A stretch of 64,000 nt of DNA from Chitinophaga lutea (GTDB taxonomy: Bacteria; Bacteroidota; Bacteroidia; Chitinophagales; Chitinophagaceae). The notes beneath the pieces are model-generated. The model had not been told where the DNA came from. It searched no databases and worked only from the letters and a program-made list of their open reading frames with translations. The position numbers and the translations under genes were made by a program. Below, piece by piece: positions 6,137 to 34,727 of this stretch (the stretch's first letter is position 1; each line of letters starts with the position of its first letter). The stretch is from positions 1 to 64,000 of the forward strand of contig NZ_RPDH01000003.1 of assembly GCF_003813775.1 (NCBI RefSeq), read 5' to 3'.

Positions 6137-6174
6137 AAACATAGCGGCCTGTATACTTACAGGCCGCTATGTTT
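6137..6174. terminator. Perfect 17-bp stem hairpin after the rsgA fragment
   Basis: AAACATAGCGGCCTGTA and TACAGGCCGCTATGTTT pair perfectly around a TACT loop, ending in T residues. It starts 14 bases past the rsgA stop and probably moved together with that gene end. Confidence 0.75.
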
Positions 6175-6418
6175 CATCATACGTATTAAAATATGGTTAT
6201 GAAATTTACTGCCAGTTACAACATCGCCAATCGTCTGATCGAATGCCGTTACGTTGATATTCTTCGCGACGATCTTCCCATCAGGATCAGGCAGCAGTTC
6301 CTGCGGAATAGGGATTGCCGGAAAAACAGGTACGAGAGATCCCAGGCTCGTCAATGGGGCGTGGGACTGAAGGAAGTTGTATATAAAATTCCCTCTCCGA
6401 TTATAATCGCACCACAAT

Positions 6419-6459
6419 AAAAAACAGCCCGCCCTGTCCGACAGGGGAGCTGTTTTTTT
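6419..6459 (-). terminator. Terminator for the C25-like peptidase gene
   Basis: AAAAAACAGC and GCTGTTTTTT enclose an inner stem CCTGTC/GACAGG. The structure lies 20 bases beyond the stop of the leftward gene at 6478 and can work in either direction. Confidence 0.7.
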
Positions 6460-6477
6460 GTTGTCATCCACGTTGCA

Positions 6478-8160
6478 CTAGATGGTGAAGCGGAAGTAGC
6501 ACCAGCAACTCCATGCGCAATACCGGTCGCCGATCTTGGCGCGTACACGCCAGCGGCCCGGTTGTGCTCCCACGAAATTGTGATTGAACGTAGTGCCGGT
6601 GATGCCGTGATAGACGGCGAAGCTCCGGAACGACTGTGCGGCCCACTGGCCTGCATTCACCGCGCCATGCGCATCGATCTCGATGCTGTAGGTGGCGCCG
6701 GGGATGTTCACGGGCGCCCATTTGAAGGTCATGGTGCGCGGGAAATGATGGAATACGCTGCCTTCTGCAGGCTCCAGCGGACGGGGCACCGCGCCTTTCC
6801 ACCAGGTGAGGGTGGGGTCCCCTAATATGCTCATGCCGTAGAACCATTGGCGCTCGCCGAGGTCGTGGTCGCTGCCCCGGGCTTTCCACCAGTCTACCAT
6901 CGCATCGCCGATGCATTTCCCTTTCCCGATCGGGTCGTAGAAGTCTGCAAAGAACAACATGGAGCCGGTTTTGGTGCTGCCTACCGCCGTAAGGCCGTAG
7001 TTGGTTTCGCCGCCGGATTTGTCGAAAATGTACCAGCCGCCGAGGTAGTCGCTTTCCGTGAACCTCGCTGTGCTGCAGCAGAAGAGGTTATAGAAGTGCG
7101 CATTGGGGGCGCGCTCGTCGCGGAAGTACGCGGTGTTGATCCATTCGGTGCTGCTGGTGGACGGGATGCGGAATGAATGGGAGTGGGGAGAAGAGTGCGA
7201 ACAAAGCTGCACGAAGGAGCGGGTTTTGTTCACTTCCACTTTGTACAGATCGGCGTCGGTGATGTCGGGATTGGTGTATTTGGTGATATAGGAAGCGGGG
7301 GTCATCAGGTCCATCTCGCAATCGTCGAAACCGGTCCAGTCGTCTTCCACATACGCCAGCGCCGAACGGGAATGGCCGAGATTGCCGGTGCGGAAGAGGT
7401 GGTTACGGTCGAAGTAGTTGTTGATGAGGGCGGGGTCGTTGCCGTTGAGTGTGGGCGTCCAGATGCGGCCTACCCAGATCTCGGGTATCACGTCGCCGGT
7501 AACGGCGTTGTATTTTCCGTCTGCGTCGGAATCGGTCCAGGTGCCGTTGGTGTCCATGTAAAATAAATCACAGGGGAATTCGGTGGACGCGCCGTAAAAG
7601 TCGTCGCTCATTTCGAACCAGGCCGGCGGGATGGCGCCTACCATCACAACGCCAACAGGGTTTTTGCCTTTGATGTAGTTGCGGATGTAAGACGGTTTGC
7701 CGCCTTTCACCACGTGTACGGTAGCCCAATAGCCGTCGCGGCCGAGGTCGAGCACATAACGTTCCACTTTGTCTTTGGTGGCGGTATATACGTCTGTATG
7801 CACGAGCACCAGCACCTTGCCGCGCGGGTGGCGGAGCCAGCTGTAGGTGTTGAGGTAGGCCTCGTTAACGGGGTAGGAAGGGCGTGGTTTTTCCTCGATG
7901 AGGGGGAGCAGGTCGAGGAATTTTTTATTGATGGTAAGGTAATCGGCGAAGCTTTTCAGGGCCAGGTTGTTCTGGTCCATCAGCTTCAGGTTTCGCACGC
8001 TTTTGTATGCCTGGGCCAGTTTGTAGTTGCGGCCCACGGCCTGCATGTTAAAAAGGGTACGGTCTTGCAGCACCTGCGTACGGATGGTCTGCAGGTTGGT
8101 GATGGATTGTTTTTCTCCGGCAACAGGGCTGCCGTTGAGAGGTTTTTTTTCGGTAGACAT
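6478..8160 (-). CDS. Gingipain-like (C25, clan CD) cysteine peptidase
   Basis: With the ATG at 8158-8160 the protein has 560 residues; an upstream TTG would add nine. Features of family C25 are visible: the segment DLFYMDTNGTW, then DSDADGKYN, and PEIWVGRI, followed by a histidine in QLCSHSSPHSH (about residue 322) and a cysteine in NLFCCSTARF (about 361). The C-terminal 100 residues look like an all-beta fibronectin-type domain (TMTFKWAPVNIPGATYSIEI). Unusually for this family there is no signal peptide, prodomain or type IX secretion C-terminal domain. Substrate unknown; clan CD peptidases cleave after specific single residues. Confidence 0.7.
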   Translation of the reverse strand: MSTEKKPLNGSPVAGEKQSITNLQTIRTQVLQDRTLFNMQAVGRNYKLAQAYKSVRNLKLMDQNNLALKSFADYLTINKKFLDLLPLIEEKPRPSYPVNEAYLNTYSWLRHPRGKVLVLVHTDVYTATKDKVERYVLDLGRDGYWATVHVVKGGKPSYIRNYIKGKNPVGVVMVGAIPPAWFEMSDDFYGASTEFPCDLFYMDTNGTWTDSDADGKYNAVTGDVIPEIWVGRIWTPTLNGNDPALINNYFDRNHLFRTGNLGHSRSALAYVEDDWTGFDDCEMDLMTPASYITKYTNPDITDADLYKVEVNKTRSFVQLCSHSSPHSHSFRIPSTSSTEWINTAYFRDERAPNAHFYNLFCCSTARFTESDYLGGWYIFDKSGGETNYGLTAVGSTKTGSMLFFADFYDPIGKGKCIGDAMVDWWKARGSDHDLGERQWFYGMSILGDPTLTWWKGAVPRPLEPAEGSVFHHFPRTMTFKWAPVNIPGATYSIEIDAHGAVNAGQWAAQSFRSFAVYHGITGTTFNHNFVGAQPGRWRVRAKIGDRYCAWSCWCYFRFTI

Positions 8161-8308
8161 TGTCTCGCTTTTTTTGAGGTTAAACAATTTGATACCTCAA
8201 AGCTACGCCGCCGTGGAGCGGTTGAACAGGTAGCATCTACCTGAATTTAAGCGTATTTATACGCAGGCCTCCCGCTGTATATTGTACCTGTCGCCTGAAA
8301 TGCGGAAA

Positions 8309-8330
8309 GGCGCCCCTTTTTGGGGGCGCC
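8309..8330 (-). terminator. Hairpin after the cytochrome-like lipoprotein gene
   Basis: GGCGCCCC and GGGGCGCC pair around a loop of T residues, about 110 bases past the lipoprotein stop. On the minus strand only a short T-run follows, so termination strength is uncertain. Confidence 0.5.
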
Positions 8331-8439
8331 GCTTGTTTTCCGGTGGCCATACTGTTGTTGACAATGCCTGCACACCGCGCCATCCGGCGGATGTACAGGC
8401 ATAGTGATGATGCATGAAGCAATGCTGAAGAGCCTGCGC

Positions 8440-9024
8440 CTAGTCGGAGTAACGGCCGCCGGCGGTTACCCAGGCCGTGATCTTGTCTTTTTCCGCCTGG
8501 GTCAAAGAGCCACCCACGGGCATGGTGCCAAGGTCAACCGCTCTTACCTTTATTCTGGCAGCAGCGCTGACGATGTTGCAATCGCCCTGGAGGTTGCGGC
8601 CCCCGCTTTGGTTGGTGTTGTTATGGCAACCCTGGCATTTCGCGGCCACCAGCGTTCTTACTTCGGCGAACTTGGGGCCGGCTGCTGCCGCAGCGATGGT
8701 AGCCTGTGCGGTTTTCGTGCAGCCGTCCGCGTCCTTTACCGTAACGGTGTAATTACCGGCGGCTTTGGCGCTGAAAGTGTTCGCTGCCGCGAAAGTGGTG
8801 CCGTCGATGCTGTAGGTAAAGCCGGAGCTGCCTGTGGCGGTAACGATGATGGTGCCGGTGGGGGCGCATGCATCAGAGGCGGTGACGGCGGCCGCCACCA
8901 CGATCGTTTTGCTGGCGCAGGGGTCGGTGTTTTTCGGTCCGTCATCGCTTTTGGAACAGGCTGCCAAAGCAACGGCGAAAAAAGACATGGCTGCAAGTGC
9001 AGGAACATTCGGTGATTTAAACAT
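8440..9024 (-). CDS. Cytochrome c-like lipoprotein with SprB-type repeat
   Basis: The start at 9022-9024 gives a 194-residue lipoprotein with lipobox ALAAC (Cys23). The longer frame would run through the cyclase gene. Residues about 45-110 resemble one SprB-type beta repeat (GFTYSIDGTTF, then AAGNYTVTVKDADGCT). The C-terminal third carries one haem-binding motif KCQGCHNNTN and a likely axial methionine in GTMPVGGSLTQAEKDKI, as in single-haem c-type cytochromes. It probably sits in the outer or inner membrane by its lipid anchor and transfers electrons or serves as a haem-containing accessory. No partner oxidoreductase is nearby. Confidence 0.75.
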   Translation of the reverse strand: MFKSPNVPALAAMSFFAVALAACSKSDDGPKNTDPCASKTIVVAAAVTASDACAPTGTIIVTATGSSGFTYSIDGTTFAAANTFSAKAAGNYTVTVKDADGCTKTAQATIAAAAAGPKFAEVRTLVAAKCQGCHNNTNQSGGRNLQGDCNIVSAAARIKVRAVDLGTMPVGGSLTQAEKDKITAWVTAGGRYSD

Positions 9025-9128
9025 GCAATTGGATTGAGTTAGGTGAAAATTTCCTTTAATACCGGAATTCTCCGCGCATGGTTGCCTTGCTGCTGCAGGT
9101 TTTTCAAAAAATAATTTTAACGGGCCCG

Positions 9129-9896
9129 TCAATGCTCCAGTATCGCCACTACCCTTGCCGGCGCCGCTGAAGCGCCAACGATCTTCAGCGGGAACACGCA
9201 TACCTTGAAACCGGAAGGCGGCAGTGCATCCAGGTTTACGAGTTGTTCCATATGGCAGTATTCTTCCCGCTGCCCGACCAGGTGCGCTTCCCAGAACAGT
9301 TCCCGGTTGCCGGTCAGTTTTGCCTGGCTGATCATGTAAGGAAGCGGCAGGTCCCAGCCCCATTGATCGATGCCCATCATTTTGATGCCCTGGCCGATCA
9401 GCCAGCTGGTAGCCTCTTTGCTCATGCCGGTCCCTTTTTTATGAAAGTCAGGCGTGCCGTTAAAGCGGTCCCGCCCCGTTTTGATCAGTACGATCATGCC
9501 CGGTTGCAGGGTAACGTTGATCTGCGCGAGGCTTTTTCGTACATCGTCTGCCGTGATGGGATCGAAGTCCGCTTTGTGGGTCATGTCCAGCACCACCCCG
9601 TTGCCGTAGCACCAGTCGAGCGGTATCTCATCGATCGTTTTCGCTTTCTGGCCATCTACCACGGGACTGTAGTGCCAGGGAGCGTCCACGTGCGTGGTGG
9701 CGTGAACGCCCATTTTTTGAATGGTGTCATCCGCCCAGCCGGAAAACCCCGAAGGGAATAATCTGAAAGGAAGGCCCACCAGCCTGATGAGCCATTTTGC
9801 CTTGTGATGCGGTTTGTGTTTGATTTTTACGCGCATGAACCAGGGATCGGAGCGGTTGTAGCGGATAGGTTTCGACAGATCGATGATGGTTGCCAT
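9129..9896 (-). CDS. Cyclase-family (kynurenine-formamidase-like) metal hydrolase
   Basis: This 255-residue protein has the metal-binding motif HATTHVDAPWH typical of the cyclase family (HxTHxDxPxH), which includes bacterial kynurenine formamidase and isatin hydrolase. The family uses bivalent metal, often Mn or Zn, to hydrolyse amide bonds. Supporting parts are the DWCYGNGVVLDMTH segment and the catalytic-type HME motif at EEYCHMEQL. No tryptophan-degradation genes are nearby, so the substrate is not assigned. It lies upstream of the lipoprotein gene on the same strand with about 100 bases between. Confidence 0.8.
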   Translation of the reverse strand: MATIIDLSKPIRYNRSDPWFMRVKIKHKPHHKAKWLIRLVGLPFRLFPSGFSGWADDTIQKMGVHATTHVDAPWHYSPVVDGQKAKTIDEIPLDWCYGNGVVLDMTHKADFDPITADDVRKSLAQINVTLQPGMIVLIKTGRDRFNGTPDFHKKGTGMSKEATSWLIGQGIKMMGIDQWGWDLPLPYMISQAKLTGNRELFWEAHLVGQREEYCHMEQLVNLDALPPSGFKVCVFPLKIVGASAAPARVVAILEH

Positions 9897-10002
9897 GGTG
9901 ATGCCGGGAGATTAGGATGTATTTGATGCCGCAATGATAAATATTTATTCCGGATGTCGTGTTTGTACAATTAAAGGAACGCAGGCTTTGGTAATTTTAA
10001 GT

Positions 10003-10383
10003 ATGATTTCCGTTGAAACATTTAAGGCGATGTGCCTGGCCCTGCCTGAAGTGCAGGAGGTGACGCACGGGGGTTCCCCGGCTTTCCGGACAAAGCGCCG
10101 CATTTTTGCCACGCTATGGCCGGACCAGAACCCGGCGAATGCCGCCATTACCAAACCCAGCGCCAATTTCGGCTTTACGCCGGAGGAGCAGGCGGCCTTC
10201 TGCAATTCCGCGCCTGACAGTTTTTTACCGGTGCCCGGCGGATGGGGCCGCCAGGGATGGACTACGGTAAAACTCTGGAAGGTCAAAAAGAAAATGCTCG
10301 AAAGCGCCATTCACAGCGCGTGGTATGGCGCCGCTCCACCCAAACTGCAGGAGCAGTACCGCCTCGAAAACGGGCTGGAGTAA
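10003..10383 (+). CDS. YjbR/MmcQ-family protein
   Basis: I chose the ATG at 10003, giving 126 residues starting MISVETFKAMCLALPEV; the longer frame from 9934 adds an unlikely cysteine-rich leader. The pattern of an N-terminal helix ending in ALPEVQEVTHGGSPAFRT, followed by IFATLWPDQ and a C-terminal GWTTVKLWKVKKKMLESAIHSAW region, fits the CyaY-like YjbR/MmcQ family, thought to bind DNA or act in stress but of unknown molecular function. A small hairpin (10385-10413) follows the stop. Confidence 0.8.
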   Translation: MISVETFKAMCLALPEVQEVTHGGSPAFRTKRRIFATLWPDQNPANAAITKPSANFGFTPEEQAAFCNSAPDSFLPVPGGWGRQGWTTVKLWKVKKKMLESAIHSAWYGAAPPKLQEQYRLENGLE

Positions 10384-18825: not shown

Positions 18826-19842
18826 ATGGGTTACCGCCTTGCCGCTTTCGGGGAATTTTTATTGCGCCTGCACAGCAACGGCCACCAGCGTTTCGGACAA
18901 ACGGATGGATACACGGCTTATTATGCAGGTGCGGAAGCGAATGTATGCGTATTGCTGGCGAGGCTGGGCATGCAGGTGGATTATATCAGCCGCGTACCGG
19001 ACAACGACCTGGCGGCCGCGGGCTTGCAACAGCTCCGGGGCCACGGCGTAGGCACTGCGCACGTGGCGCTGGGCGGCCAGAAACTGGGCCTCTATTTTTC
19101 GGAACCGGGCAACCAGCTGCGCCCCATCCGCGTGATCTACGACCGGAACGGCAGCGCCTATGCGGAACTGGAACCGGGCATGCTCAACTGGAACAGCATC
19201 TTTCAGGAACATCAATGTTTTCACTGGTCGGGCGTGGCCGCCGCTTTGTCCGCCTCTTCGGCGGCAGTTTGCGCGGAAGCCATACAAACCGCCCGCGATA
19301 AAGGGTTGCTCATTTCCTCCGACTTTAACTACCGCGCCACCTTATGGCAATACGGTAAAAAGCCGGCGGAAGTGATGCCTCCCTTGCTCTATCACAGCGA
19401 CGTAGCCGTAGCCGACCTCGACGCGGTGGAAATTTATTATGGCATCACCACCGATGCCTCTCTTCCGCTGGAAGAACGCTTCCGGCAAACCTTCACCACC
19501 CTGCAACGGCACATGCCCCGCCTGAAAACGCTGGCCATGAGCTTCCGCAAAACACAGGGCGCCGCACCGGTATATTCCGGCGCGCTGGCGCACGAAGGGG
19601 GATTTTATTTTCATGACGGGTTCCCTGTTCCCATGGTGACCGATGCTATCGGCACCGGCGACGCGTTTACGGCGGGCATGCTCTACGGCCTTACGAATGG
19701 CCATGCCCCGCAGGATATCATCAACTTCGCCACCGCCTGCGGCCTGCTGAAACAAAGCATTCCGGGCGACTGGGCCATTCTCTCTCTCAAAGACATCGAG
19801 TTGCTGCTCAAACAGGGCATTTCAGGGCGCATCGCGCGCTAG
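18826..19842 (+). CDS. PfkB-family sugar kinase (2-keto-3-deoxygluconate kinase type)
   Basis: This 338-residue protein has the PfkB signatures: an N-terminal GEFLLRL with substrate-binding GAEANVCVLLARLG, DFNYRATLW in the centre (as in KdgK) and the anion-hole motif TDAIGTGDAFTAGM holding the catalytic aspartate. KdgK phosphorylates 2-keto-3-deoxygluconate to KDPG. No aldolase lies in the window. It completes the DeoR-SusCD-GntP-RidA-kinase locus. Its TAG overlaps by 2-3 bases the TAG of the convergent NTPase gene. Confidence 0.82.
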   Translation: MGYRLAAFGEFLLRLHSNGHQRFGQTDGYTAYYAGAEANVCVLLARLGMQVDYISRVPDNDLAAAGLQQLRGHGVGTAHVALGGQKLGLYFSEPGNQLRPIRVIYDRNGSAYAELEPGMLNWNSIFQEHQCFHWSGVAAALSASSAAVCAEAIQTARDKGLLISSDFNYRATLWQYGKKPAEVMPPLLYHSDVAVADLDAVEIYYGITTDASLPLEERFRQTFTTLQRHMPRLKTLAMSFRKTQGAAPVYSGALAHEGGFYFHDGFPVPMVTDAIGTGDAFTAGMLYGLTNGHAPQDIINFATACGLLKQSIPGDWAILSLKDIELLLKQGISGRIAR

Positions 19843-22800
19843 AAGGGTACGCCCAGTTCCTTTTGCCGTTGCCTGCTCAGCTCCCGCTTGATGGGCGACC
19901 TTTCCTGCTCCAGCAGTTTCCACACCCGCTCCGCATTGAACACATTCAGGTAATCGAGGTTATTGGGGAATGCGCATAAGAACTGATCGCGCACGTAATA
20001 CAGCACGGAACCATTGGCGGACATGCCGTACAGGTCGTTGGCCGTTACCTGCAGGCCGGTTTTTACCTGCAGCCTGCTGTTCAGCACCAGCAGTTTGTTT
20101 TTCTTGGTCAGCACCACCAGTTCGTCGGCCGCGCGGTTATGCCGGATGGTTTCGATACCGTCCGGGTGGGTGAAAATGAGGGGTGCGGCATTGCCGTCGA
20201 GGTCGCGGCGGAAGATGGTGTCTTTCTGTTCGTCGTATGGGGCTTTATAGGTGATGATGGCGTTTTTATCGAACACGGGCGCAATCAGCTGTTCCCGGAA
20301 CAGCAGGCGTGCGTTGGTTTTCAGGTCTATCACCTCCACCATCTGCGCGTATGCGCTCAGTTCCATTTTCGCCACCAGTTTGTTGCGCGCGAGGTTGCCG
20401 TAACCGTAGGTGTAATACTGGTCGGTGGTGAAGGAAAGCGTATCGTTGTTTTGCAGCACGTTGATCTTGTCGAAGGTGCCCCATACCACGGCGCCGTCTT
20501 CCGTAAAGTCCCCAAAGAGCGCGTTTGTGATGCGGTGCAGCCGTTTCCCGTTTTCATCGTACACATCCAGCTGGTACACATCGTCCGAAACAGGATAGAG
20601 CGTAAGTAATTGTTTCATGTCGCGGGAACTGGTGATGGTAGCGTCAGACGGCACGTTGCAGATAAACTGTTTCTGCGGATCGAGTATCTGCACCTTCTGG
20701 ATCAGCTGGTCGCTGGGCGCCAGCTGCACATACGGTATCACGAGGTTGCCGGAGGCGGTGAACCGGACGCGGTACGAATCGAACTGTGAAAAAGGCCCGT
20801 CGGCGATGTTTTCCGCCGGGTGCAGGTAACGGTTGGGACCGCCGAGGGTGACGATCTCTTCCGTTTGCGCGGCACAGTCGTAGAGGATGAATTCATCGGG
20901 CAGCGCCGATTCCCGGCTGTATTGCCAGATGGAGCGCGGGTCGGCGGGTTTCGATTTCCGGCAGAGCAGCAGCACATTGTCTTTGTTGGTGAAATACATG
21001 TAGGCGATCTCCCGGAAGCTGCGCAGCACCTCGCCGTTCTCGTTCAGTACGAGATAGTCCTGCACATTGGGATTGGTGGCGTCGCCTGAATTGTCCACCA
21101 CCATAAACCGCCCGCTGGCCGAGATATCGAACCGGTTGGCCTGCTGGATGGAAGAGGAAAGCGTATCGGTGTAGAGGGCGAAGAGCGACTGGATATCCTG
21201 CCGCTGCATGTACTCCATCAGTTTGCTGTTGATCTGCAGGGTGTCTTCCTCGTATACTTTTTTCCGCAGGGGCGCAAACAGGTTCAGCGCTTCTACCGGG
21301 TGGATGTGGCCGAGCTGGTAACTCATATAGGCCAGCGCCTTGTTGCGGGCCATTTCGCCTTTGACGTAGGTGAAATAGAAGATGGCGGTGTAGGCCAGCA
21401 TCAGCCCGATGAGCGCCCAGATCCATTTCCAGTTGCGCTGGCGGAACTTCAGCTTTTCGAGCCGTTCTTCTTTTTCTTTCATCACCCGCTGTTCGCGGTC
21501 CCGGGCGCTGATACTGTCGGCGAAGAATTTCTGGATATCGGGTGACAGGTTGAGCTGGCCGATGTAAGGCCGGTATGCCTCGATCTCTTTCGGGGTGAGG
21601 TAATCGCTGGTTTTATTCTGGAAGCCGGTGAAGCGGCTTTGCAGCTGCTCGTTGGTGTAGTTGGCGCGGCGCTGTTCTTCGGTACGGCGGCTGTCGATGA
21701 GGCCGGCCAGCACGTCGTGCGCCAGTTCGTACGTTTGTCCGTCGGTGCGGAGGATCTTGTTTTTTTCGAGCTCCTGCAGGCAGCGCAGCATCAGGTTGCC
21801 GGGCCTTTTTTGCAGGTAGGGCGCCACCTGCCCGGTAAACCAGATGCTGCTGGTTTTGCCGTCGGTAATGCGGTAGTAGGCGAGTGGGCGTTTGGTGCCC
21901 TCCGGGGTCACGAACGCGTCCAGCACGTTGCTCACAAAGTCGCCGGGGATGCCCGGGAATTCCTTTTCGAGCACATCCTGGATCACGTCGAGGCGTTCGC
22001 GGATGAAGCGGTTCAGTACCTCGGTCATTTTCCCGAATCGCTGGATGATCTGCGAATCGAATGTCAGCGGAGGGTAGGCCTCTTCTCCGTTGGTGCGCCG
22101 GTCGCCCGTGCTCATGTACACGCTGCGCCACAACTGGTCGAGGTAGATCTGCAGGTAGGGCAGGGAGATGCTGTTCTTTTCCGTCAGCACGCTGATGATC
22201 TGCTGGGCGTTGGCCGCGCCTTCCTTGAGGGTGATGGAGAATTTTTCGCAGGAGCGCATGATCACTTCTTCCACGTTCCGGGCGTTCATGGGCTCGATGC
22301 GCAGGCGGCGGTCGCAGAAATCGGGGATCTCCCTTTCGAATTCGCTGAGGCCGGCGAAAAACTCTTCGCGCATGATGAACAGCATGCTGCAGAACTGCAG
22401 GTCGGGCGAGGATAAAATGTGATCGATACCGGCGATGAAAGCCTGCTTCTCTTCCTGGCTGCCCATGATGAGCAATTCCTCGAACTGGTCGAAAATCAGG
22501 TACACCGGCCGCAGGTAACGGAGGTTGATGTTCTTCAGCGACTCGTATACCTGTTCGCCGTTTTCGGCCTGCTGGGCGCCGGGTCGTTTGACGATGAGGG
22601 TCTGCGCCACATTGGTTTTGCCGCTTACCATCGTTTCCGCCGGTTCCCTGTTTGCGAGGGCTTTCTGGAGGATGTTTTTCAGGGAATCGTTGATGTTTTC
22701 GCTGCGGCGGATGAAGAAGGGCGTCCAGTCCGTGTCTTCCATCCTGTTCATCAACCCGCACTGTACGATGCTGGTTTTGCCCGTGCCGCTGGTGCCGTAC

Positions 22801-22925
22801 ACCAGTACCAGCCTGTTTTTGTGGATGTGCTGGTACAGCTGCCGGATCTCCTCGTCGCGGCCGAAGAAAATATTGTAGTCGTCGCGCCCGTAAGGATCCA
22901 GGAATTTAAAGGGGCTGTTGATCAT
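19839..22925 (-). CDS. nSTAND-type NTPase with membrane anchor
   Basis: This 1028-residue protein has a STAND P-loop module: GRDEEIRQLYQHI, Walker A in YGTSGTGKTS (44-52), and the signature Walker B VYLIFDQFEELLI (141-153) of the novel STAND subgroup. A winged-helix part follows, ending with YELAHDVLAGLID (about 399-411). A coiled, charged stretch (470-498) leads into one membrane segment (about 500-520). The last 500 residues are beta-rich and could form a propeller, but I see no clear WD or Kelch motif. STAND proteins oligomerise on sensing a trigger and activate effectors. It lies 9 bases after the CHAT gene in the same operon. Confidence 0.85.
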   Translation of the reverse strand: MINSPFKFLDPYGRDDYNIFFGRDEEIRQLYQHIHKNRLVLVYGTSGTGKTSIVQCGLMNRMEDTDWTPFFIRRSENINDSLKNILQKALANREPAETMVSGKTNVAQTLIVKRPGAQQAENGEQVYESLKNINLRYLRPVYLIFDQFEELLIMGSQEEKQAFIAGIDHILSSPDLQFCSMLFIMREEFFAGLSEFEREIPDFCDRRLRIEPMNARNVEEVIMRSCEKFSITLKEGAANAQQIISVLTEKNSISLPYLQIYLDQLWRSVYMSTGDRRTNGEEAYPPLTFDSQIIQRFGKMTEVLNRFIRERLDVIQDVLEKEFPGIPGDFVSNVLDAFVTPEGTKRPLAYYRITDGKTSSIWFTGQVAPYLQKRPGNLMLRCLQELEKNKILRTDGQTYELAHDVLAGLIDSRRTEEQRRANYTNEQLQSRFTGFQNKTSDYLTPKEIEAYRPYIGQLNLSPDIQKFFADSISARDREQRVMKEKEERLEKLKFRQRNWKWIWALIGLMLAYTAIFYFTYVKGEMARNKALAYMSYQLGHIHPVEALNLFAPLRKKVYEEDTLQINSKLMEYMQRQDIQSLFALYTDTLSSSIQQANRFDISASGRFMVVDNSGDATNPNVQDYLVLNENGEVLRSFREIAYMYFTNKDNVLLLCRKSKPADPRSIWQYSRESALPDEFILYDCAAQTEEIVTLGGPNRYLHPAENIADGPFSQFDSYRVRFTASGNLVIPYVQLAPSDQLIQKVQILDPQKQFICNVPSDATITSSRDMKQLLTLYPVSDDVYQLDVYDENGKRLHRITNALFGDFTEDGAVVWGTFDKINVLQNNDTLSFTTDQYYTYGYGNLARNKLVAKMELSAYAQMVEVIDLKTNARLLFREQLIAPVFDKNAIITYKAPYDEQKDTIFRRDLDGNAAPLIFTHPDGIETIRHNRAADELVVLTKKNKLLVLNSRLQVKTGLQVTANDLYGMSANGSVLYYVRDQFLCAFPNNLDYLNVFNAERVWKLLEQERSPIKRELSRQRQKELGVPF

Positions 22926-22934
22926 GTGCTGCGG

Positions 22935-24770
22935 TTATGGCTGTAAGGTGGTGGCGTGCATGGCAAAATCCCTGAAGGCATTCAGCTGTTTGCACACAGC
23001 TTCGTACCGGCTTTGCTCCTGTTGTTCCGTCCGTCCGAACTTGCGGTCTATATTGATTTCCACGTGGTTCATATCGTCGTCGGGTTTGCTCACGTTGCGG
23101 AACACGTACACTTTGTCCGCCTCGCGGTATTGCCCGTAAAATACCAGGTTGGAACGGTCGGCGCGGCTTTCGAACGCGTTGATGTCTATCACCAGCGGCG
23201 ACAGGTTCAGGAATTCGAGGGCTTCGCCTTTATACTGCCGTCTTTCCACGTTGAACACGCTGAGGTTTTGTTTGGTGAGGATCACGCCGCTATTGTCGAG
23301 GTGCTTGGCCAGCAGGTAATAATTCACTTCGTGGCTGGCGTTGGAGTTCATCAGTTTCACCACCTGGTGGTCGAATTCCGTGAGCACGTCGTGCCGGTAT
23401 TTGTTGATGCGGATGTTCTGGATGCTGGTGAGGGTGTAGCGGTGCAGGAAGCCCAGTTTTTCAAAGAAAACGGAGAGCATCGATTCCGCGGTGAGACAGA
23501 GGTCGCCCACTTCCGCTTCCTGGATGCCGACGGGTTTGCCGGGATAGGTGGCGTTGCGGATATAAGCCAGGTACTCGCAGGCTTCGCCGAACTTTTTATT
23601 CTGCTCGTCTTCTTCGCGCAGCGTTTCCAGTTCGGTCACGAAATAGTCCACTTTATCGAGGGTGTCGATGTATTTGCGGATACCTTTGATCAGCGTGCTG
23701 TAATTGTATATGGCGCGTTCGTCTATGTTGAGGTTGAAATAACTTTCCAGGAGCTGCTCGATTTCGTCCGGCAGCTCTTTCACCCGTTGGGTGATCTTCA
23801 GTTCCCACAGCTGGCTGATCATGATGATGCCCATGAACTCCGTGGTGATCTGGAACACCCGGGCGATCTGCTCGAGCCGTTTGATGCTGGGCTTTTTCAG
23901 GGCCTCGGCGCCGTATTCGGCCGCGAACAGCGTTTTCAGCTGGATGGCGATGGGGTGGGGGAATACGTCCATGATCGTTTTCTGGAACACATAATCTTCG
24001 ATGATCTCCATCTTTTTCTTCTCGTCGAGTTGTATGGCGGGCGCATTGCCGTCGTTGACGAGCGCGGTGAAGATGGTCTGCGTCAGTTGGATGTTCGGTT
24101 CGTACAGGGCAGTGGCCGTTTCGGGCGCACTCGGCAGTGGATTCATGTCCACGGCATCGGCGTTTTTATAGAACAGGCCCCAGAAAGGCTCGCGCGGTTT
24201 CTCGCCGGGAACGTGCAGGTCGCGGTTGACGGCATCGTCGAGTCCCAGCGCTTCTTTGGCGGCGGTTTGGGCGGAAGCCAGCGCGGCGTTGAAGGCGTTG
24301 CGGAGGCTCATTCTTTTCTGGCAGACGTTGCGGAAAAACTCCACGCCGAAGATCTTAGCGCTCGTGTCGTTCACGGAGGCGTTGGTGGCGATGACGGCGG
24401 GCACGCCGAGGTCGAGCAGCTTGGTCACCTGCTGCGCGGTGGAGCAGCCGTTGAGTATCACCAGCCGCAGGTTGCCCGCGGCGATGCTGGGTTTTAGCTG
24501 ATAGGCGATGCCGATGCCGTTGGCTTCCTGGTCGTTAAAAAGCAGAGAGGTCTGGCTGGCATGGCCGGCGTAATGAAAAATGGCGATGTTGCCGCTGTAG
24601 GTACCAAGGGCGTTATTGATATTGTCTACCGTGGCGAACGATTCCCGGTGCACACTGTAATTACCGCGGTTGTTTTCTATCAGTATGCGGTGGATATGAT
24701 CGTCTTCTTCAGTGATGGATGCAAGGGGCTCACGCGAGCTGTTTGCAAAAGATATGATGATCGTTTTCAT
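22935..24770 (-). CDS. CHAT-domain (caspase-like) protease with helical partner region
   Basis: Starting at the ATG at 24768-24770 the protein has 611 residues. The CHAT protease domain (about 1-205) shows the catalytic histidine in IFHYAGHA (His70) and cysteine in VILNGCSTAQQ (Cys109), followed by GVPAVIATNASV. The remainder is mostly alpha-helical with a region around YEPNIQLTQTIFTAL and no recognised domain; the end is beta-rich. Stand-alone CHAT proteins with NTPase partners act in bacterial conflict systems. No signal peptide, so it is cytoplasmic. It is the first gene of a two-gene operon with the nSTAND NTPase. Confidence 0.87.
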   Translation of the reverse strand: MKTIIISFANSSREPLASITEEDDHIHRILIENNRGNYSVHRESFATVDNINNALGTYSGNIAIFHYAGHASQTSLLFNDQEANGIGIAYQLKPSIAAGNLRLVILNGCSTAQQVTKLLDLGVPAVIATNASVNDTSAKIFGVEFFRNVCQKRMSLRNAFNAALASAQTAAKEALGLDDAVNRDLHVPGEKPREPFWGLFYKNADAVDMNPLPSAPETATALYEPNIQLTQTIFTALVNDGNAPAIQLDEKKKMEIIEDYVFQKTIMDVFPHPIAIQLKTLFAAEYGAEALKKPSIKRLEQIARVFQITTEFMGIIMISQLWELKITQRVKELPDEIEQLLESYFNLNIDERAIYNYSTLIKGIRKYIDTLDKVDYFVTELETLREEDEQNKKFGEACEYLAYIRNATYPGKPVGIQEAEVGDLCLTAESMLSVFFEKLGFLHRYTLTSIQNIRINKYRHDVLTEFDHQVVKLMNSNASHEVNYYLLAKHLDNSGVILTKQNLSVFNVERRQYKGEALEFLNLSPLVIDINAFESRADRSNLVFYGQYREADKVYVFRNVSKPDDDMNHVEINIDRKFGRTEQQEQSRYEAVCKQLNAFRDFAMHATTLQP

Positions 24771-24954
24771 GACAAAAACACTTCGGGGCATTAAAAAAAG
24801 CGCTCGTATTATTTGGGGTCCTTTCTGAGCGTATACAATATTTACTCACTGTAAGTTACGAATTTTAAATTATATTTGTTACAGGTCGTAAGAACCGTCA
24901 GTAGAGTGTAATCCCAAAAGTCAGTATCTCCCAACCCCGAAAAATTTCGCTTGT
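24771..24954. promoter_or_regulatory. Divergent control region of the protease module
   Basis: These 184 bases drive both protease operons outward. On the plus strand TATATTTG (24871-24878) matches the Bacteroidota TAnnTTTG box, 77 bases before the caspase start. I could not find an equally good box for the CHAT side. No clear operator palindrome was seen. Confidence 0.45.
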
Positions 24955-27900
24955 ATGCAGGAACGTATGTTTTATGCCGCATTTGTGGGCATAAACGCTT
25001 ATCCGCAGGGCGCACTGAGTGGTTGCGTAGGGGATGTGCTGGAGCTTGATCTCCTGTTCCGCGAACAGTGCGCGCAGCAAACCGGCATCCGTTACCAGCC
25101 TGTATATTATCTGGCCCCCAATGCCGCCGACGCATGGCGTATCGAAGCGCATGAAGCGGCCACCGGTGAAAAGCTGCGGTACGAAGCACCCACCTTTTCC
25201 AATCTGTCGACACGGTTATTTACCCATTTTAAAGACGCCGGCGAAGGCGATATCTGTGTATTCTATTACAGCGGCCATGGCTCCCAAACCGAGGCTCCTC
25301 CCGTGTTTGACCGCCTCATGATGGAAACGCTGGTGTGTGTGGACAGCCGCGATGAAAACAATCCCGCCGCACGCGACCTGATCGATAAAGAACTGGCGTG
25401 GCTGCTCTGGAAAACGTTTTCCGGGAAACCCGCACATGTGTTGGTGATGATGGACTGCTGCCATTCCGGTAATAATACCCGCAGCCTGAAGAATGAAGCC
25501 GATGTGCAGTTCCGTTACCTGCCCAGCGACCGTAACAAAATACCTTTTGAGCAATACCTCGGTTATGGCGATGCCGGTTTTTACAGCAGTGAAGGCGGTA
25601 AAATGAGCATCAAAATACCCCGTTACGTGCACCTGGCCGCCTGCCGCGACGACGAGAAGGCGCAGGAAACGATGCAGGGCGGGCTTTTCACTAACCGTTT
25701 GACCGAGGCGCTCCGCTCCGGCGGTGCTGCCGGCAGCTATCGCCAGTTGATGCAGGGGCTCACCATCAGCGTGGGCAACCGTGCCGAAAGGCAGACCCCC
25801 GTTGCGTTTTCGGTGGAAGACGGCGACCTCGACCAGCAGTTCCTTTCCGGCAACATCCGGCCCTACCGTCCATTTTACAACGTGCGCTACAATGCGCGGG
25901 AAAAGCGCTGGAAAATTTACGGCGGGGCGATGCATGGGCTTACAACCGGCGATACGCTTCGTGTGAGCGATGGGGAGAAACAGGCGGACGTGGTGTTGCA
26001 GGAAGTGGCGGCGGCGTGGAGTTGGGTTGCATTGGGTGGTTTTGATGAAGACAGTACAACGGTCACTGCCGTGTTGGTGCGTTCCGCTGCCGCAGTGATG
26101 AAAGTGGGTGTGCAGCCGGCGTTGAAAGACATTATCGCATTGGCGGATATTGAAAAGGCGGACGGGGCAAGCGCATCCCCTTCCCCGGAAAACGCTGCCA
26201 GGAAAACGTATCCTTATTTTACGCTGCTGGAAGAAGGCGCTCCCGGTGTGCAATATGTCATCCGGCAACTGGCGGACGCCGCGTATGTGCTGTTGCCGGT
26301 GAACGGTGATATGCCGTTGTTCAAACGCCAATCCGACGCGGCGGTGTTCCTGGAGAACGTCAATAAAGTTGGCAGCTGGCTGTCGGCGCTGGAATTGCAG
26401 CACCAGGCCGCCGGTCTCTCACAGGGCGATTTTGTGTTCCAATGGGCGGCGGAGCCGGGAGAGGTGCTGCCTGACGGCGTGGCGCTGCGGTATGAAGGCG
26501 AACAGTATCCGTCCTTCGGTTTGAGAATATCCATCAATCCTGTTTCCCCGCTGAAGGAATGTTATATCAAAGCCCTGTACCTCGGCAGCAAATATGGCGT
26601 CAATACCTCCCTTATCCGCGACGACAACAACAAGCTGACCAACACGCCCGGCAGTTACCTCGATTTGTCGCTCCAGTACCAGGGCAACACCTACACCCGC
26701 CTGCCCGTCAGCATCGACGAAAAATATGCGCGGTACAACATCCGCGAAATCACCGATTACCTGAAAATTATCGTGTCCGATACACCCGTGCACCTCGATC
26801 AATATGAACAGGAAGAACTGGAGCTGGACGATGGCACGGTTACGCGTGGACTGGCCGTGCCGGGCGCCGTGCGAGGCGCTGCGGCGGAGCAGCCGCAATG
26901 GTCGGTGTTCACTTTCAGAGTGATGTGTAAGCGGACACCTGCCGAGCAAACATTGCAGTCCGGCGGCAAGGCGGCATTCTATGCCTTCGATATCGAAGCG
27001 CCGGACGGTTTTAAAGGCCGCGTGGTCTTGCAGCCAAAGGAACATACCACCCGCAGTATGGAGCCTGATTTGTGGGGCGCCACGCTCACCGGGGAGGTGC
27101 TCGGCGGGCAGGCGCTGCTGCTGTACCCGGAGACGCCCATTCCCGAAGGCGGCGCGCTTAGGCTGCGGCTCAAGCCACCGGCCGCTGCGGTCCGTTCCCT
27201 GAAAGACGATCAGTTGGAAGAGATCGTGTTGCCGTATGGTTTTGATCCTGCCACCCGGCAATTCGTGCCGCTGGGGTATGCGGACGATGCAGGGAATATT
27301 TTCATCGAACAGTTGCCGGCGTCCGGCGAACGGAGTATTGGCGGGGCGGTGAAGCTGTATTTCAAAAAGATATTCAAACCCAGACAGGTGAACCTGCTGG
27401 TGGCGCCACCCGGCCTCAAGGGTAAAGCCACCTTGCTGATACATGGTTTTACCGGCGAAACGCAGAGCATGCGCGAAGCCTGTGCGAACGGGGATGCGCT
27501 GCTCACGTACGATTACGAAAACCTGGCCACGCCGGTTGCGCGCACTGCCGAATTGCTGCATACTGCATTACTGGATGCGGGCGTGGGCAATGGTGTGGAG
27601 CTGACGGTGGTGGGGCACGGCACGGGCGGACTGGTGGCCCGCTGGCTGGCGGAGCAGCTCAAGGCGCCGTATGTAAAACGCCTCGTGCTCGTGGGCACAC
27701 CCAATGCCGGCGCGAAACTCGCCGCGCTCACCGCATCGGTCACCGGTATGCTCGCAGACGCCCTGAATTTTACGGGCCCCGTTAAATATGCGATCACCGG
27801 GTTGGCATGGTTGCTGAAACATCTAAAACTCCATCCCGCCACCGCTTTTAAGGAAATGCAACCCGGTTCGGAGCTGATGCAGCAAATGCAGGCCTCCGTG

Positions 27901-28131
27901 ATGGCGCCTGGCGTGGAATACAAGATCATCGCCGGCGACGCTTCGCTGATGAAAGGCGGCATCATCGACAAGGCTATTGTACACGTGTTCGGCCAGGAGC
28001 GTAACGACCGTGCCGTGACCGTAGCCAGCATGCAGGCCATTCCCGGCCTCGATCTGCAAAACCAGGTGGCCATCGTGCCCTGTCATCACCTGGGATATTT
28101 CCGGAAAGAAACCGGCATTCAACTGACTTAA
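24955..28131 (+). CDS. Metacaspase-like (C14) protease fused to alpha/beta-hydrolase-like domain
   Basis: This 1058-residue protein starts with a caspase-fold p20-like domain (about 1-275): catalytic histidine in FYYSGHGSQ (His108) and cysteine in MMDCCHSGN (Cys169). A long middle region (about 300-800) is beta-rich, with GGAMHGLTTGDTLRV, and has no clear family. Residues about 815-1055 have an alpha/beta-hydrolase layout: strand and oxyanion TLLIHGFTGET, elbow VVGHGTGGLVARW, then LVGTPNAG. The usual GxSxG nucleophile is glycine here (GHGTG), so the domain is likely non-catalytic. No signal peptide. The next gene follows after 6 bases. An alternative start is Met5. Confidence 0.85.
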   Translation: MQERMFYAAFVGINAYPQGALSGCVGDVLELDLLFREQCAQQTGIRYQPVYYLAPNAADAWRIEAHEAATGEKLRYEAPTFSNLSTRLFTHFKDAGEGDICVFYYSGHGSQTEAPPVFDRLMMETLVCVDSRDENNPAARDLIDKELAWLLWKTFSGKPAHVLVMMDCCHSGNNTRSLKNEADVQFRYLPSDRNKIPFEQYLGYGDAGFYSSEGGKMSIKIPRYVHLAACRDDEKAQETMQGGLFTNRLTEALRSGGAAGSYRQLMQGLTISVGNRAERQTPVAFSVEDGDLDQQFLSGNIRPYRPFYNVRYNAREKRWKIYGGAMHGLTTGDTLRVSDGEKQADVVLQEVAAAWSWVALGGFDEDSTTVTAVLVRSAAAVMKVGVQPALKDIIALADIEKADGASASPSPENAARKTYPYFTLLEEGAPGVQYVIRQLADAAYVLLPVNGDMPLFKRQSDAAVFLENVNKVGSWLSALELQHQAAGLSQGDFVFQWAAEPGEVLPDGVALRYEGEQYPSFGLRISINPVSPLKECYIKALYLGSKYGVNTSLIRDDNNKLTNTPGSYLDLSLQYQGNTYTRLPVSIDEKYARYNIREITDYLKIIVSDTPVHLDQYEQEELELDDGTVTRGLAVPGAVRGAAAEQPQWSVFTFRVMCKRTPAEQTLQSGGKAAFYAFDIEAPDGFKGRVVLQPKEHTTRSMEPDLWGATLTGEVLGGQALLLYPETPIPEGGALRLRLKPPAAAVRSLKDDQLEEIVLPYGFDPATRQFVPLGYADDAGNIFIEQLPASGERSIGGAVKLYFKKIFKPRQVNLLVAPPGLKGKATLLIHGFTGETQSMREACANGDALLTYDYENLATPVARTAELLHTALLDAGVGNGVELTVVGHGTGGLVARWLAEQLKAPYVKRLVLVGTPNAGAKLAALTASVTGMLADALNFTGPVKYAITGLAWLLKHLKLHPATAFKEMQPGSELMQQMQASVMAPGVEYKIIAGDASLMKGGIIDKAIVHVFGQERNDRAVTVASMQAIPGLDLQNQVAIVPCHHLGYFRKETGIQLT

Positions 28132-28137
28132 AAATTC

Positions 28138-30738
28138 ATGCATATGCCTAAAGGTTATTCATTGCACATTGGATTGAACAACGTGGACGCAAAAAATTAT
28201 CCCGGCGTGCCCGCTTTATTCGCAGCTGTCAACGATGCCGTTTTCTGGGCGTCGTTCGCGGCGGAACAGGGATACAAGGGGAAGTCGCTTCACAACGAAG
28301 CCGCCACCGCCGAGGCGGTGCTCGATATTTTATCGGGGTATGCCCGCGATATGCAAAGTGGCGACATCCTGCTGCTCACGTATGCCGGCCACGGCAGCCA
28401 GCTGCAGAATGAAAAGGAAGACGGTTTCGATCGCGAAAGGAACGATCAGACCTGGTGCCTCTACAACCGCGAACTGCTCGACGACGAGCTGTTCGATGCA
28501 TTCCGCGCCTTTGCGGAGGGGACGCGCATCGTGGTGGTTTCCGACAGCTGCCATTCCGGAACCATGGTGCGGGCGCTGCCCGATGGGCTCGACCTGAGCG
28601 CCCTGCTGGAAGAGGGCCTGAGCCGCAGTATGGCCGCGCGGGGCATGCGCTCGCGCAAGCTGCCGCTGGAAGTGGAGCAGGCGGTGGCGGCCCGCTTCGG
28701 TAATTCCGTGTACGCGCCTTTGCAGAAAAAATATCAGAAAACCGCGCAGGCGGAAAACATGAAAGCCTCGGTGAAACTGCTGGCCGCCTGCCAGGATGAT
28801 CAGACCACCTACGACGGGGAAAAGAACGGCGTGTTCACCGAAGCGTTCATGGAACTGTTCAAAAAGCCCGCGTTCAAAAAGGCTACCGCGGAAACGTTCA
28901 TCGACGAGATCCGGGAGCAGTATTATTTCCCGCGCCCGAACTTTTTCCAATACGGGGCCATCATCCCGTCGTTCGACCGGTCGTTCCCGTTTACCATCGA
29001 CATTCCGGATGCGGCGGTGGTGAAGGGACACCGTGCGCCCGAGCTGCAGCCGCAGCCCCTGCGGCGGTCACTCAGTGCGGAAGAGGAGTGGGACCAGGCA
29101 AAGGTGAAAAAGAACGCGCAACTCCTCGTTGAGTTCGATACGCCGTTGACCGGGCCTTTTACCGGCGGCGGCGATATGGTGATACTGGAGAACGACGGCA
29201 GCTCGTTGCTGCTGGAACTGAAAAACACGCCGCACGAACATGCCTGGAGCGCCGCGCATGCCCTGCAGCAGCAGCTGGCGGCCAAAGGCATCCAGGCGTC
29301 CGTAGAGCCCGTGCTGAGCGTAACCCCGGCGCAGGATAAAAGAGCCACGCGCGAAGGAGATATCAACAACCCCGACTATATCCCCGAATGGCCGCCCGCG
29401 AAAGCGGAAGGGCATATCGGCTGGCATCTCGATGATGCGCATTCCCAATTGCTGAAGGCGCAGCGCGCCCTGCAGGAACGGCCGGGCGCCCATGTGCGCA
29501 TTGCCCACCTCGATACCGGTTACATCGCCGGGCATGTGGCGTTGCCACCGCAGCTCGACTACGCCAACCAGCGCAGTTTCGTGAAAAAGGAAGACGGCTC
29601 GCAGGCTGTGGATAAACCCGATTCCGGCCAGGACGGGCACGGGCTTGGAACGCTCATATTGCTCGCCGGCAACAAGGTGACGAAGGCCGATACCTTTGAT
29701 GAATACGAGGGGTATATCGGCGGGATGCCATTTGCCGACGTGATCCCCATGCGTATTTCCGAGTCGGTGGTGATCATGAACGACAGGAATTTCAGCGCCG
29801 CGCTCGACTACGCGATCGAAAAAGGCTGCGAAGTGGTGTCGATGTCGATGGCCGGCAAACCCAGCAACAGGATGGCGCAGGCGGTGAACCGGGCTTACGA
29901 GGCCGGCATCGTGATCGTGTCTGCCGCCAGCAATTGCTGGTACAAGGGCACCGGCGCCCTGTTGCCGAAATGTGTGATGTACCCCGCCGCATTCGAACGG
30001 GTGATAGCCGCCACCGGCGCCATGTACGATCATCAGCCGTACGATGTGGCATACCTGCGTGGCCAGCGGGCTATCAGCACCCAGTATATGCAGGGCTCCT
30101 GGGGGCCGGCCTCGCGCATGACGCGGGCGCTGGCCGCTTACACGCCCAATACGCCCTGGGCGTCCACACACCACACGTTTCTGCGGAGCGGGGGCGGCAC
30201 ATCTTCCGCCACGCCGCAGGTAGCGGCGGCCGCGGCCTTATGGATCGCCTATCACAGGGCCGAACTGGAAGCCAAAGGATATTATCAGCCCGGCCGGCAG
30301 TGGCTGAAAGTGGAAGCGGTGCGCCATGCCCTGTACAAATCTGCATACACCGGTTTCCCCGAATGGAAAAAATACTACGGCAACGGCATCCTGAGAGCCT
30401 ACGACGCATTGCAGGCGGGTGTGGCGGATGAATCGGAACTGAGCATGTCACCTTCCGCCGAAAGCTCGCTGTTCGGCATCGTGGAAACCATCGGCGCATT
30501 TTTCAAAAGGAGGAAACTCTTCCGCAGCAGCGCCCCCTGCCCGCCAGCCAATGCCCTGGGGCTGGAGTTGCTGCATCTGCTGCAGACGGATCCGCAGTTC
30601 TTTGCATTGTTTTCTTCACTCAACCTGCACGATACAACCGCCATGGAAATGCTCCTGAACGATCCTGCATTCCAGGAACAGGTGCTGCAAAGCCCGTATG
30701 CGTCCAATTACCTGAAAGAAGCTGTTTTAGCGGCATGA
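28138..30738 (+). CDS. Metacaspase-like (C14) domain fused to subtilase (S8)
   Basis: This 866-residue protein unites two proteases. Residues about 5-285 form a caspase-like domain: His85 in TYAGHGSQ, Cys138 in SDSCHSG. After a linker (about 300-445), a subtilisin-type domain carries the complete triad: Asp459 in IAHLDTGY, His501 in GQDGHGLGT, Ser689 in GGGTSSATPQVA, with oxyanion Asn599 in SAASNC. The C-terminal 100 residues are helical and unassigned. There is no signal peptide, so both proteases should be cytoplasmic. It is 6 bases downstream of the first caspase gene, almost surely the same operon. Met1 or Met3 could be the start. Confidence 0.88.
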   Translation: MHMPKGYSLHIGLNNVDAKNYPGVPALFAAVNDAVFWASFAAEQGYKGKSLHNEAATAEAVLDILSGYARDMQSGDILLLTYAGHGSQLQNEKEDGFDRERNDQTWCLYNRELLDDELFDAFRAFAEGTRIVVVSDSCHSGTMVRALPDGLDLSALLEEGLSRSMAARGMRSRKLPLEVEQAVAARFGNSVYAPLQKKYQKTAQAENMKASVKLLAACQDDQTTYDGEKNGVFTEAFMELFKKPAFKKATAETFIDEIREQYYFPRPNFFQYGAIIPSFDRSFPFTIDIPDAAVVKGHRAPELQPQPLRRSLSAEEEWDQAKVKKNAQLLVEFDTPLTGPFTGGGDMVILENDGSSLLLELKNTPHEHAWSAAHALQQQLAAKGIQASVEPVLSVTPAQDKRATREGDINNPDYIPEWPPAKAEGHIGWHLDDAHSQLLKAQRALQERPGAHVRIAHLDTGYIAGHVALPPQLDYANQRSFVKKEDGSQAVDKPDSGQDGHGLGTLILLAGNKVTKADTFDEYEGYIGGMPFADVIPMRISESVVIMNDRNFSAALDYAIEKGCEVVSMSMAGKPSNRMAQAVNRAYEAGIVIVSAASNCWYKGTGALLPKCVMYPAAFERVIAATGAMYDHQPYDVAYLRGQRAISTQYMQGSWGPASRMTRALAAYTPNTPWASTHHTFLRSGGGTSSATPQVAAAAALWIAYHRAELEAKGYYQPGRQWLKVEAVRHALYKSAYTGFPEWKKYYGNGILRAYDALQAGVADESELSMSPSAESSLFGIVETIGAFFKRRKLFRSSAPCPPANALGLELLHLLQTDPQFFALFSSLNLHDTTAMEMLLNDPAFQEQVLQSPYASNYLKEAVLAA

Positions 30739-31088
30739 CGCCGCAGACGCGTATTTTCATACAAGGACGAACCGACACGCTCCTGCCCGCAGGCCATGCG
30801 GGCCTATATCCTTTCCTTCCGCTCCGGTATTACCGAAGGGTGGCGGTACCGGATGCCGTAAGGGCCCCTAACCATTATCATCGGGTGGGCTGACTGCGGT
30901 CATAGTACAGGTGGCCGGAAGGCCGCATCTTTGTACTGTTTGTTAGTAACAGCAGTAAGTTTCATGGTGGTGTGTGTAGAGGATATGGTTTAACGGGCGT
31001 CACGGCGAAAGTCGTGGCGCTTATTATTTGCAGGTATTGAATTTGTAACCTATTTTTATACAGGAGTTTTTACTGTATTGGGCATATT
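30739..31088. other. 350-base gap before the hybrid kinase
   Basis: No gene is visible. A hairpin GCCCGC/GCGGGC (30785-30803) without a long T-run lies about 45 bases after the caspase-subtilase stop and may end that operon. A second imperfect hairpin (about 30998-31020, GCGTCACG/CGTGGCGC) lies in the presumed leader of the kinase gene. Confidence 0.45.

Positions 31089-34727
<3,639 letters not shown>

Follow-up and report, generated by a model that had tools for sequence, protein, structure and literature searches.

A divergent four-gene module of CHAT, nSTAND and caspase-fusion proteins in a Chitinophaga clade, a possible receptor-triggered proteolytic cascade

The window analyzed here (64,000 nucleotides of Chitinophaga lutea, positions 1 to 64,000 of contig NZ_RPDH01000003.1) contains a module of four genes arranged as two divergent pairs: a leftward pair coding for a CHAT protease and an nSTAND NTPase, and a rightward pair coding for two caspase fusions, gene 3 (caspase-hydrolase) and gene 4 (caspase-subtilase). 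The four open reading frames (ORFs) were found at the positions given by an initial annotation of this DNA (19839-22925 and 22935-24791 on the minus strand, 24955-28131 and 28138-30738 on the plus strand). The divergent layout that it described was confirmed, with gaps of 9 bp between the CHAT and nSTAND genes and of 6 bp between genes 3 and 4, and so was its control region of 184 bp, provided that CHAT starts at the Met shared by its orthologues (24770). The protease residues that it described as present (the CHAT His and Cys, both caspase His-Cys dyads and the subtilase Asp-His-Ser triad) were all found, and every Pfam match (nSTAND1; CHAT; caspase C14 and DUF7379; caspase C14 and S8 subtilase) lay above the curated cut-off. 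The module comprises the following features (aa, amino acids; KD, Kyte-Doolittle hydropathy; pLDDT, predicted local distance difference test):

19839..22925, minus strand: nSTAND1 NTPase, 1028 aa, with a STAND domain, one membrane segment and a C-terminal half (Pfam nSTAND1 5.2e-36)
21486..22925, minus strand: STAND domain, residues 1-480 (mean pairwise identity 68% over 11 genomes)
21369..21425, minus strand: predicted membrane segment, residues 501-519 (KD 1.66; six K/R on the N-terminal side vs three on the C-terminal side)
19842..21338, minus strand: C-terminal half, residues 530-1028, predicted to lie outside the cytoplasm, putative sensor (mean pairwise identity 42%)
22935..24770, minus strand: CHAT protease from the shared start (ORF extendable to 24791)
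24955..28131, plus strand: gene 3, caspase, middle region and lipase-like alpha/beta hydrolase, 1058 aa (Pfam C14 1.2e-17, DUF7379 1.4e-11)
27412..28119, plus strand: hydrolase region of gene 3, probably a pseudoenzyme, as Gly stands in place of the nucleophile Ser (GHGTGG)
28138..30738, plus strand: gene 4, caspase, propeptide, subtilase and helical tail, 866 aa (Pfam C14 3.5e-15, S8 2.7e-20)
28147..29004, plus strand: caspase domain of gene 4, residues 4-289, similar to 3bij (GSU0716)
29110..29310, plus strand: pro-subtilisin-type propeptide, residues 325-391
29311..29412, plus strand: linker between propeptide and subtilase, residues 392-425, with a candidate processing site near R405 (pLDDT<50 at 395-404)
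29413..30426, plus strand: subtilase catalytic domain, residues 426-763 (D459/H501/S690)

The nSTAND protein belongs to nSTAND1 (PF20703), with 125.5 bits against a gathering score of 27.1. Its Walker motifs (GTSGTGKTS and LIFDQFEEL) were conserved across 13 aligned sequences, and the nSTAND1 match was also present in all 33 nSTANDs chosen from the wider set of loci described below. No PDB sequence relative was found for its profile at E<=0.01, and with 15.7 bits against 1500 for the NCBIfam Avs4 model it was not assigned to Avs4 (AVAST type 4). The membrane segment claimed by the initial annotation was recovered by hydropathy analysis. Its N-terminal side was richer in K/R in 14/14 members of the Chitinophaga clade described below (5 vs 4 in G035; G and L numbers denote genomes and loci), and from this basic side the STAND domain is predicted to be cytoplasmic and the C-terminal half to lie outside. 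This half was the least conserved of 11 regions compared (42% vs 68% identity for the STAND domain). The protein thus resembles a receptor that crosses the membrane once and has its divergent C-terminal half on the outside, a prediction that is new here. A WD40 identity of that half is not claimed for the window protein, since the profile match was weak (hhalign probability 11).

The neighboring CHAT protein was assigned to PF12770 by a Pfam match of 1.4e-8, above the gathering score, by its catalytic His and Cys and by a caspase-like fold. The catalytic residues, H77/C116 in the long ORF and H70/C109 when counted from the shared Met, were invariant in an alignment of 61 sequences. Of 80 loci considered for it, 8 that were damaged, incomplete, truncated or close to a contig end were set aside, and 60 of the other 72 were used. 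The nearest solved structure was the SAVED-CHAT protease 8tl0, as found by Foldseek, VIA and sequence profile, a likeness that is new here. Residues 225-618 were modelled and the fold-search rows span residues 4-224, so this comparison barely tests the C-terminal region of about 390 aa, which has no Pfam match. CHAT was the sole Pfam match in the protein at E<=0.01, with no SAVED domain; cas genes were not searched for.

Gene 3 codes for a protein whose PDB profile matches include metacaspases and lipases. Its caspase domain scored 64.8 bits for C14 against 21.4, the dyad H108/C169 was invariant in the alignment, and the caspase motifs were kept in all 12 copies aligned. The lipase-like domain behaved otherwise: the nucleophile elbow reads GHGTGG in the window and AHSMGG in 7 of 11 intact clade copies (the window counted among the 11), the Ser being lost in G000, G058, G055 and G396. 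On the rpoB tree described below, the genomes with this loss belong to two groups, each with support 1.0: G000+G012 and G055+G058+G035+G396+G025. Since the elbow lacks its Ser nucleophile, the hydrolase of the window species is probably inactive, which is new here and corrects the initial annotation; judged by the same motif, the active site is intact in other species.

Gene 4 gave an AlphaFold model with a mean pLDDT of 86.7. Its caspase domain scored 56.8 bits for C14 against 21.4, with the dyad H85/C138 invariant in the alignment, and it resembles GSU0716 (3bij) in fold and at 37% identity; GSU0716, in contrast, is a 285-residue protein without propeptide or subtilase. The subtilase belongs to S8 by its Asp-His-Ser triad and its fold. 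Entries of pro-Tk-subtilisin aligned over residues 325-763 of the model, the propeptide not being scored alone, and in the predicted model the propeptide is packed on the catalytic domain. Residue 405 was K or R in 47 of 65 gene 4 homologues (64 of 120 listed homologues were taken for this alignment). The pro-subtilisin-like propeptide of the model suggests that the caspase-subtilase is probably a zymogen, a feature that is new here. Peptide-maturation proteases were rejected as candidates, with scores under the cut-off for mycosin (84.6 bits vs 278.75) and PatA (20.4 vs 421.05), and the caspase_w_EACC1 model of the EACC1-caspase system gave 32.7 and 24.1 bits against 140. Judged from hydropathy only, signal-peptide character was low in CHAT and gene 3; in gene 4 there is a moderate stretch (KD 1.43 at residue 24), which lies inside the caspase fold of the model.

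As the initial annotation had proposed as a check, the four genes were found together in the same divergent order in other genomes, a recurrence that rules out chance neighbors. Adjoining matches for CHAT, gene 3 and gene 4 were present in relatives (99 searched), and the fetched regions mapped to the same order. CHAT of this family (E<=1e-40) occurred in 17 of the 79 genomes of the genus and the four-gene array in 16. The array was whole in 14 (G000, G012, G021, G052, G003, G058, G055, G025, G039, G035, G389, G390, G393 and G396). In G006 it is split, with a contig edge after the first three genes and gene 4 on another contig. The array of G402 is riddled with frameshifts: its four genes survive as fragments, their order unchanged, and rpoB is fragmented there too. 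The seventeenth genome, G020, has the caspase-hydrolase, CHAT and nSTAND genes in the same direction and no caspase-subtilase alongside. Three of the 14 arrays carry damaged effector genes: a stop in gene 3 with the hydrolase region missing (G012), gene 3 in three pieces (G035), and genes 3 and 4 interrupted (G025).

An rpoB tree of 76 of the 79 genomes (G006 without rpoB match, and the fragmented G397 and G402, being left out) placed all 14 whole arrays in one clade of 15 with support 1.0 (hypergeometric 2e-14, relatedness ignored). The fifteenth member, G032, had no match for CHAT, gene 3 or gene 4. Splits shared with the rpoB tree were 8/11 for nSTAND, 9/11 for CHAT, 7/8 for gene 3 and 8/10 for gene 4; of five supported conflicts, four concern the placement of G039, whose rpoB position was unstable between the 14-taxon and larger trees, and one concerns G000/G390. 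On this general agreement with rpoB a mobile cassette was rejected, and inheritance within the clade looks largely vertical. In nine chosen pairs, the ratio of nonsynonymous to synonymous substitution rates (dN/dS) was 0.01-0.15 in the STAND, CHAT and subtilase domains, dS often being saturated, and it rose to 0.31-0.32 in the nSTAND C-terminal half and in one decayed hydrolase pair.

Such inheritance bears on what the module is for. A non-lethal housekeeping pathway of regulated proteolysis or envelope stress would fit the vertical descent, the low dN/dS and the metabolic neighbors, but the four-gene set was present in 0/61 other species of the tree (G020 being a three-gene relative), G032 does without it, and effector genes are broken in 3/14 arrays; we consider this explanation very unlikely. 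The same machine might instead serve specifically against phage, as an NLR-type abortive-infection system. Caspase homologues have antiphage roles in type III CRISPR, gasdermin/CARD, NLR and Thoeris systems (PMC12799240), and the PADLOC caspase model was matched by the caspase domains of gene 3 (3.5e-20) and gene 4 (1.4e-7). Against it, an extracytoplasmic sensor could encounter phage at the envelope only, and the distribution is clade-bound and largely vertical. The defence-island setting raised by the initial annotation did not appear either: none of 104 flank proteins (of 108 listed, from 12 genomes) matched PADLOC at E<=1e-15, a test of limited power, as among the module proteins gene 3 alone would pass that threshold. 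Three matched weakly and singly at 1e-5 (PDC-M43B 5.5e-9, HTH_VI 1.3e-8 and SduA 5.4e-7), and the Pfam families tallied in the flanks were mostly metabolic or signalling. Descent within the clade makes a mobile phage-defence island less likely and a pathway of the clade itself, for death, arrest or recognition, more so; we regard an anti-phage role as possible, if doubtful.

Beyond the clade, 80 CHAT loci were collected from named genomes, mostly of Bacteroidota and a few of other groups; four end at a contig edge, and in 73 of the 76 testable loci an nSTAND gene lay within 600 bp downstream. Among the three exceptions, the contig ends 614 bases away from one, and another has a partial gene. 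A caspase-hydrolase was found in the same stretch in 26/80 loci (Chitinophaga 11/11, others 15/69) and an intact caspase-subtilase in 9/80, all Chitinophaga; many loci are cut by contig ends, so these partner counts are lower bounds. WD40 proteins made up 15 of 48 neighbors chosen from 92 candidates, and 7 of 33 nSTANDs chosen from the 73 paired loci carried WD40; ten more neighbors, picked from the 48 and checked singly, were mostly metabolic, repair or two-component genes. Named-genome loci and numbered genomes are partly the same organisms, and their counts are not summed.

A search with the caspase-subtilase gave 167 homologues over threshold among 7998 candidates scored. Among the matches listed, nearly all of 120 had both domains, and the sources, where named, include Chitinophaga, Chryseolinea, Niastella and Saprospiraceae. 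Sixteen of 294 sampled genomes of the family matched, and 8 besides the window had a near full-length fusion. A caspase-hydrolase-type gene adjoins it in four of these eight (G380, G305, G168, and G384 without hydrolase match), CHAT lies nearby in three (G305, G168 and G247), and this nSTAND family was found in none, the contig of G192 ending after 6 kb; a weak 2e-5 match in G384 is to a kinase-AAA-cyclase protein. Ten further neighbors at these loci were chosen by eye. The partners thus recur in other orders and not always, which is evidence of association and of separability together. Homologues scattered without their partners, which the initial annotation had named as grounds for rejecting a single module, were found in part, outside the clade: CHAT-nSTAND often occurs without the caspase proteins, and the caspase pair also without nSTAND. 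Judged from these gene neighborhoods, CHAT-nSTAND is the core, and the caspase-hydrolase and caspase-subtilase behave as attachable effectors.

This distribution also suits a reading as two separable units that have a promoter region in common: STAND and CHAT for signalling, and caspase-hydrolase with caspase-subtilase as an effector pair activated in its own way. Of the 69 CHAT loci outside Chitinophaga, 54 lack the caspase-hydrolase and 69 the caspase-subtilase in the stretch, many being cut by contig ends, and the effector pair stands without CHAT-nSTAND in G384 and G380. However, 14/14 whole arrays keep the four genes together, G032 gave no match for CHAT or for either effector gene, and in L214 and L215, two rearranged loci, the caspase pair likewise comes with a CHAT; we judge two units to be unlikely.

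Several other arrangements were observed at these loci. A gene of about 365 aa, a protein of 490-530 aa and a caspase or caspase-subtilase recur together in L110 (8716-13821), L221, L226 and L227; the first is a caspase by Pfam in L110, and the second had no Pfam match in two scanned. In L108 and L109 (G055 and G058) a 1534-aa protein is divergent from a caspase-hydrolase, CHAT and three more genes, a second kind of CHAT module. A thiol-activated cytolysin-family protein adjoins the CHAT-nSTAND pair of Flavilitoribacter (L150, 8159-9832). In L209 (6195-13462) a kinase-AAA-GAF-cyclase protein (1696 aa) and a lipoxygenase-like protein are divergent from a caspase-hydrolase-type/caspase-subtilase pair.

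Two noncoding features accompany the module in the window:

24771..24954, no strand assigned: 184-bp divergent control region, with one TATATTTG box facing gene 3 and no matching upstream element
30995..31022, plus strand: terminator-like stem-loop (12-pair stem) after gene 4, ahead of a histidine kinase gene at 31089

The motif TAnnTTTG we take to be the Bacteroidetes -7 box. The full two-part promoter pattern was present in 2/12 control regions (G003 and G389), that of the window not among them. Promoter- and terminator-like sites showed no clear excess over shuffles, the latter numbering 15 vs a mean of 13.8. The gene that follows the module codes for a GAF/PAS hybrid histidine kinase (31089-34727), and it does likewise in G058, G055, G025 and G035; it may be either a regulator or merely conserved order.

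No description of this set of four genes was found in searches of an open-licence library, with subscription papers mostly outside that scope and bioRxiv preprints outside it, and the words "subtilisin" and "peptidase S8" are absent from the main text of a survey of prokaryotic caspase homologues (PMC3501461). Its parts recall several known systems. The SAVED-CHAT of type III CRISPR, structurally nearest to the CHAT of the module, is described as starting a proteolytic cascade (Steens et al., after PMC11229360), whereas the module CHAT has another C-terminal region, no SAVED match and a membrane nSTAND partner. In Canu caspase-nuclease systems a caspase-family protease activates a co-encoded pro-enzyme, with phage defence via programmed death or growth arrest (PMC12799240). 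The module likewise combines a caspase-family protease with a predicted pro-enzyme, but this is a subtilase fused to a caspase and not a nuclease; no Pfam nuclease match was found in the four proteins or in five neighbors scanned alongside. The conflict systems of Kaur et al. contain STAND NTPases, including nSTAND1, and caspase effectors (PMC7159879, PMC8195603), and the caspase domains of VMAP systems have an alpha/beta-hydrolase neighbor (PMC7159879). The module shares the STAND NTPase, the caspase effectors and the caspase and alpha/beta-hydrolase pairing; what sets it apart is CHAT as its constant partner and the fusion of a pro-subtilisin to a caspase, and no Pfam match to MoxR, vWA, trypsin or effector-associated domains was found in any of the four proteins. 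In System 3 of the same authors, trypsin domains, and at times subtilisin (S8) domains as well, are coupled to a NucA-type endonuclease (PMC7159879). L217 (G366, 3-10298), an effector-enriched relative, recalls it: CHAT (cut by the stretch edge) and nSTAND are accompanied by a DNA/RNA non-specific endonuclease, a caspase-hydrolase and a convergent subtilase. Finally, in a Thiohalocapsa locus, where a retroelement diversifies the sensor, a STAND NTPase adjoins an S8 family peptidase with WD40 repeats (PMC10907252); the module also has a STAND NTPase and an S8 peptidase, but it includes a CHAT, and the peptidase forms a fusion with a caspase.

Based on the parts, their conserved linkage, the low dN/dS, the hydrophobic segment and the propeptide-like region, as read from sequences and models, we favor a receptor-triggered proteolytic cascade that acts on the own cell and leads to death or arrest, a reading with about an even chance of being right. 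The nSTAND protein would be a single-pass membrane receptor with its NTPase in the cytoplasm. On sensing a cue with its divergent C-terminal half outside, it would oligomerise through the NTPase and activate its partner CHAT, the initiator. CHAT would then process both caspase-fused proteins of the divergent operon: gene 3, a caspase with a lipase-like domain, and gene 4, a caspase joined to a pro-subtilisin whose propeptide would have to be removed before the subtilase acts. The outcome would be broad proteolysis and cell death or arrest. Topology, direction of signalling, cleavage order, trigger and outcome are inferred, and the order of CHAT, caspase and subtilase is proposed by analogy. 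The initial annotation's view of an NTPase sensing at the membrane, CHAT activation and a caspase-subtilase cascade is partly supported.

Several observations weigh against this cascade. The topology is read from hydropathy and charge, and KD reached at least 1.6 in 7/14 nSTANDs of the clade, the others going down to 1.13, and in 29/33 wider ones (at any position past residue 300 in these). In gene 3 the middle region (44%) and the hydrolase region (47%), compared over fewer genomes, diverge nearly as much as the nSTAND C-terminal half, so rapid change does not prove that this half is a sensor. Ordinary subtilisins remove their own propeptide, and the same could happen here without a cascade. 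Since the effector genes are separable from CHAT-nSTAND outside the clade, the four may be two units. Effector genes are also damaged in three arrays, in some perhaps through assembly errors. We put forward only tentatively, as a possible fuller account of the favored cascade, that a transmembrane NLR-like receptor launches CHAT, then the caspases and then the subtilisin zymogen in a vertically inherited death pathway of one Chitinophaga clade, in which two lineages have the lipase arm only as a decayed pseudoenzyme or no longer have it, while intact copies keep the caspase in front.

If true, the module would be a small bacterial equivalent of signalling by receptor, initiator protease and executioner protease, its receptor being in the membrane, and a death-type module kept by descent and not in a defence island. 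Since one polypeptide combines the caspase with the predicted subtilisin zymogen, four genes would be enough to test in what order the cascade runs. The module would also point to a CHAT-STAND core in many Bacteroidota, which varied effectors (caspase-lipase, caspase-subtilase, endonuclease) adjoin.

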